DNA of 33,051 nucleotides from a virus, in the IMG/VR virus record IMGVR_UViG_3300035698_030960, positions 1 through 33,051 of that record. One strand, given 5' to 3'. The position numbers and the translations under genes are program-made. Of the stretch, positions 12,779 through 12,914 are shown in pieces. Under the pieces are notes generated by a model, which worked only from the letters and a program-made list of their open reading frames with translations, ran no database searches and was not told where the DNA came from. Numbering within the stretch: the stretch's first letter is position 1; each line of letters starts with the position of its first letter.

Positions 12779-12914
12779 TGCCCGGGAGCGACGGTTCTTC
12801 GGATAATGCGACTGGCCAATCAGGAGCGGAGCTATGCTGTTCTGCCTTCAGGCCCACGCTCAGGTCCGACGGGCCTCATCCACCCGATCCTTTCGGCCGT
12901 ACCGCTCCCGGGCA
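12779..12914 (+). ncRNA. Candidate structured RNA, about 136 nt
   Basis: This gene-free gap begins and ends with a perfect 12-base inverted repeat (12779-12790 with 12903-12914). After a two-base bulge, ACGG 12791-12794 pairs with CCGT 12897-12900, and GGAT 12800-12803 can pair with ATCC 12887-12890. Inside, AGGCCC 12850-12855 pairs with GGGCCT 12871-12876, and a GCGGA/TCTGC hairpin is possible. The interior is GC-rich and open frames there look unnatural. It sits just upstream of the large terminase region. The strand of transcription is assumed to match the genes. No known RNA family is recognised. Confidence 0.55.

Follow-up and report, generated by a model that had tools for sequence, protein, structure and literature searches.

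Genomic context of the element

The window, by which the whole stretch of DNA analysed is meant, is a 33,051-base virus record in which the likely genes, taken as the longest open frames, all lie on the + strand. The 136-nt element considered here occupies a gap between two small genes (Table 1), and its GC content of 65%, compared with 44.7% for the window, agrees with the GC-rich gap described in the initial annotation. The 90-aa gene that follows the gap and a second small gene of 122 aa (13211-13579) lie between the element and the gene for the terminase large subunit (TerL), a distance of about 0.6 kb. Defence-system profiles run on the neighbouring proteins gave no match at the element.

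Table 1. Coordinates of the element, its predicted helices and the surrounding genes
Feature	Position	Strand	Remarks
Terminase small subunit	5009-5665		phrog_4102, E 1e-10; distant from the element
Gene-free gap	12764-12941	+	178 nt, 57% GC; flanked by a 70-aa gene ending at 12763 and a 90-aa gene from 12942
P1, 5' arm	12779-12790	+	12 bp, perfect
P1, 3' arm	12903-12914	+	perfect partner of 12779-12790
Long arm P2	12793-12875	+	predicted; pair probabilities 0.70-1.0
Short hairpin P3	12884-12896	+	predicted; CCGA UCCUU UCGG; pair probabilities 0.76-0.81
Alternative inner extension	12791-12794 with 12897-12900	+	predicted; ACGG/CCGT, 2-nt bulge offset
Small hairpin	12915-12928	+	predicted; UUUAC AAAA GUAAA, abutting P1 on its 3' side
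Shine-Dalgarno sequence	12929-12932	+	GGAG; predicted unpaired, probability 0.99-1.0
Start-codon hairpin	12933-12950	+	predicted; AAGUGG GUGAUG CCACUU, start codon 12942-12944 in the loop
Downstream gene	12942-13214	+	90 aa, phrog_25889 (unknown function); presumed controlled gene
TerL	13527-15926	+	799-aa ORF; alternative in-frame ATG 13557 after AGAGGAAAC
SPP1-type portal	15970-17460
N4-gp56-type major capsid protein	23050-24129

The TerL is 27% identical to the TerL of Vibrio and Stenotrophomonas phages. It has about 200 extra C-terminal residues, the matches to known phages stopping near residue 590-623; this part could be a further domain, the predicted structure being too poor (pLDDT 30) to say more. 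The small subunit gene is situated about 7.9 kb upstream of TerL, whereas in the related phages L006 and L007 it stands directly before a shorter TerL, which was unmatched by tblastn. This difference suggests that TerL was replaced and a block of small genes inserted.

Several other features of the window deserve mention. At 237-1217 a Radical SAM/SPASM protein is encoded that weakly resembles prokaryotic viperin profiles, an unusual cargo for a phage. The 341-nt gene-poor gap at 7125-7465 (fold z -3.4) contains TATAAT (~7349), then two hairpins, the first GC-rich and the second of 14 bp (~7403-7437) and followed by TTTTT, and possibly corresponds to a short RNA with its own terminator; Rfam gave no match there, and a simple terminator scan did not list it. 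A 146-nt sequence is present three times (5870-6015, 19189-19334 and 19786-19931), with 62-72% identity. A 52-nt leader (AGCAAAGGCATGAGCC...TAAAGA..) precedes both the portal gene (15925-15976) and the gene at 20348 (20303-20354), the two copies being 85% alike; the pair may mark a shared control signal, and its 13-nt core is absent from 103 loci. Lastly, positions 14844-14865, the TerL codons for GIDQSST, form a perfect 22-nt inverted match with 28157-28178, a gene junction (stop 28170, start 28174) 13.3 kb away, for which a simple count gives a chance of about 3e-5. The RNAs of these two sites could pair with each other, and in the related loci checked no long inverted match joins two distant sites.

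Predicted fold and its statistical weight

The two ends of the element constitute a 12-bp inverted repeat, TGCCCGGGAGCG pairing without mismatch to CGCTCCCGGGCA; thus, the perfect closing stem noted earlier holds at all 12 base pairs. Folded as the + strand, the element reaches an MFE of -68.6 kcal/mol, the MFE structure being identical to the centroid, with a fold z of -4.0 to -4.8, and among 3000 dinucleotide shuffles (mean -50.4, sd 4.0) only one was as stable as the native sequence. When the 178-nt gap is shuffled, 0.075% of the shuffles contain a 12-bp inverted repeat of any kind, and 0.02% contain one whose loop spans at least 80 nt. In the whole 33-kb window such repeats are less rare, 0.245 being expected within 150 nt, and the repeat alone is therefore unimpressive; what counts is its place in the GC-rich gap together with its folded interior. 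Without the arms, this interior has a z of -2.5 on the + strand and -0.6 on the - strand, which slightly favours the sense strand. In a scan of 658 segments of 160 nt on the + strand, the element was the most stable by energy and came third by z, ranks by z being rough with only 16 shuffles per segment, and comparable z-scores were reached by other segments of the 33-kb window. The fold of 12779-12914 is genuine and statistically unusual, both the repeat and a stability beyond chance being observed.

According to the prediction, P1 closes a three-way junction composed of one long interrupted arm (P2) and one short hairpin (P3). The pair probability of P1 is about 1.0 for 10 of its 12 pairs, 0.92 for the innermost and about 0.5 for the outermost, and remains at about 1 when the element is folded in 1 kb of mRNA context. 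P2 is a series of helices split by small internal loops or bulges, with the apical loop UAUGCU at 12833-12838. The several internal hairpins of the initial annotation come down to these two. The inner 4-bp extension that it also proposed exists as an alternative pairing that makes up about 30% of the ensemble and is 1.1 kcal/mol worse than the MFE, in which several of its bases belong to the two arms.

Downstream of P1, the predicted leader appears to leave the ribosome site for the 90-aa gene exposed rather than hidden, since the Shine-Dalgarno sequence is modelled as unpaired and the AUG as lying in a hairpin loop. The 200 nt upstream of 12942 constitute the most stable leader among the 52 likely genes, and the stability of the start region of this gene ranks 12 among the same 52.

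Search for relatives

The Rfam covariance search proposed at the outset was run at gathering and permissive thresholds, and no family matched the element, the best score being that of flavi_FSE (11.6 bits, cut-off 43, E 3.3). ARAGORN recognised neither a tRNA nor a tmRNA in it. Using blastn, only chance pieces were obtained from phages and plasmids; a 22-nt match in phage Sonora lies inside an annotated coding gene. The pattern of the closing stem with 10-bp arms gave a single GC-rich match among viral contigs, without further resemblance, and the same 12-bp arms separated by a 90-120-nt spacer were found in none of the contigs in a collection of 84,980 species' genomes. An internal 16-nt motif gave 14 matches in viral contigs, none of them a convincing homologue; the best, L108, was seeded by the motif itself and sits in overlapping coding frames. 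Among the relatives, an inverted repeat with similar arms at L015:8360-8450 is a nested palindrome unrelated to the element. The contig itself holds no second copy.

Capsid and portal searches provided relatives, phages at 44-69% identity, and a wider capsid search led to 80 loci. A direct TerL search revealed no close relative, a portal search of the genome collection for a host gave no match, and TerL alignments yielded L028 (from the contig of L014), L029 (that of L002), L118 (that of L019), L119 and L120. A covariance model based on the element as its sole sequence matched only the element itself among the closest loci, found only a chance-level match in 50 whole related records (12.4 bits, E 0.33) and, with filters switched off, scored at chance level on the TerL relatives. 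L014 is the nearest of the phages whose TerL is complete and of this type (48% identity), and the one relative that also offers upstream sequence; neither the element nor the phrog_25889 family was found in it, and different small genes lie upstream. Nor was phrog_25889 found in 48 related records. The element is therefore an orphan across the phage, plasmid, viral-contig and genome collections and the related records searched. The failure to find it in relatives with about 50% protein identity is no proof that it lacks a function, because an RNA whose structure withstands changes in sequence could outrun a model made from one sequence.

Interpretation and alternatives

As the best reading, we tentatively propose a structured leader acting in cis, or an intercistronic element, within a polycistronic phage mRNA and ahead of the 90-aa gene. 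Once the + strand is transcribed, 12779-12914 would fold into a three-way junction that the GC-rich 12-bp helix P1 closes off, followed by the small hairpin abutting the junction, the unpaired Shine-Dalgarno sequence and the hairpin showing the start codon of the 90-aa gene. Such a structure would probably shield the mRNA that carries the 90-aa, 122-aa and TerL genes on its 5' side, or insulate it there, either as a roadblock to nucleases or as a processing boundary from upstream genes, while the ribosome site of the 90-aa gene would be held open. In E. coli and Bacillus, structured 5' regions are known to protect and stabilise the mRNA that follows them, and it is also known that processing of polycistronic transcripts uncouples the expression of operon genes (PMC3997798).

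This proposal draws on the persistence of P1 in its mRNA context, the rarity of equally stable shuffles, the bias of the interior towards the sense strand, the first rank of the leader among the 52 genes and the close coupling of the presented ribosome site to the fold. It also draws on the shared orientation of the flanking genes, on a scan of the + strand from 12000 to 13600 that detected no terminator, and on the finding of neither a promoter signal above chance nor a terminator at the ends of the element. Transcription, formation of the fold in vivo and any effect on mRNA stability, processing or translation are inferred. Against the proposal count the missing homologues, and hence covariation, the lack of both element and gene family in L014, the start region's rank of only 12 among 52 and the similar z-scores elsewhere in the window. 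The regulatory RNA suggested initially is compatible with all the findings, albeit with no homologue in the collections searched.

The main rival, which we hold to be possible though unlikely, is that the element has no function as RNA and is a GC-rich spacer whose fold stems from composition and a single chance 12-bp inverted repeat, and which may be a scrap picked up recently. The lack of homologues in every collection searched, the number of 12-bp repeats expected in a window of such make-up and the similar z-scores at other places all speak for it; nevertheless, within the gap such a repeat arises by chance at a frequency of 0.0002-0.00075 and a fold as stable as the whole in 1 of 3000 shuffles, and the interior also folds beyond chance on the + strand. 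An independent small RNA that acts in trans on targets of the host or the phage would fit a compact, closed, GC-rich and intergenic structure of the usual size, and yet it is improbable given that the promoter signal does not exceed chance, that neither end is followed by a terminator and that the element directly adjoins the ribosome site of a gene. Slightly harder to sustain is an element acting at the DNA level, namely the remnant of a small non-autonomous transposon with terminal inverted repeats, a REP-like repeat or a recombination site. A perfect 12-bp terminal inverted repeat flanking 112 nt of foreign-looking GC content would be expected of it, but further copies with the same terminal repeats, as a MITE or REP-like element would have, were found neither in the contig nor in viral contigs or the genome collection, the only viral match to the 10-bp arms bears no other resemblance, and the target duplication is unconvincing (TT/TT only).

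Two further explanations are very improbable. An overlooked protein-coding frame might span the gap, taking into account that a 126-aa + strand frame (12834-13214) and two - strand frames overlap it partly; however, none of the listed open reading frames covers the whole gap, and the longest is a mere upstream extension of the 12942 gene, whose product matches phrog_25889 from residue 5 and which has its own Shine-Dalgarno sequence, placing the start at 12942. The gap can thus be regarded as gene-free, as first described. The other is a packaging RNA acting like the pRNA of phi29-type phages, a link raised initially from position. A three-way junction closed by joined ends, of about 136 nt and 0.6 kb from TerL, is in its favour, but two genes intervene before a TerL related to canonical large terminases, the portal is of the SPP1 type, and the element was not found in relatives with homologous portal and capsid. 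Rfam RF00044 (Phage_pRNA) gave no match at E<=10, control genomes being equally silent. In all the pRNAs described in PMC12670572, the left-hand loop pairs with the right-hand loop over 3-4 nt; in contrast, the hairpin loops UAUGCU and UCCUU lack complementarity, and the sole 4-nt complementarity among unpaired stretches is that of UAUG with the junction CGUA. The phi29-type ATPase gp16 was not found in this contig, which may be incomplete and encodes the 799-aa TerL instead. On present evidence, the element is not a packaging RNA.

A further reading, to which we give little credence, is that the element represents an undescribed class of structured RNA from an uncultured lineage of N4-gp56-capsid phages, regulating expression of a small gene and of the terminase gene that follows. 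Such a class might operate through two states, the best fold and the ACGG/CCGT alternative. If real, the element would add a single-lineage structured leader to the known structured RNAs of phages and would help to approach the question of when packaging genes are expressed; at present, as one sequence without relatives, it is chiefly a site for transcript mapping.

Comparison with known systems

The pRNA (RF00044) resembles the element, as predicted, in its three-way junction closed by the ends of the molecule and in its similar length. It differs in that the element has no sequence or model match to it and no loop-loop complementarity, and in that this phage has another packaging enzyme and another genome position for the element; the three-way junction common to both is a generic shape. 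Orphan candidate structured RNAs identified by comparative genomics (for example PMC2864571, PMC8040213) likewise combine a complex predicted structure with a location upstream of a gene of unknown function, and those candidates rest on conservation and covariation, whereas the element rests on one sequence. As for the stabilising 5' leaders or roadblocks (PMC3997798), these are formed by a simple 5'-terminal stem-loop, in contrast to the multi-branched junction proposed here from sequence, and they share with it the stable helices placed before an open ribosome site in an apparently polycistronic transcript.
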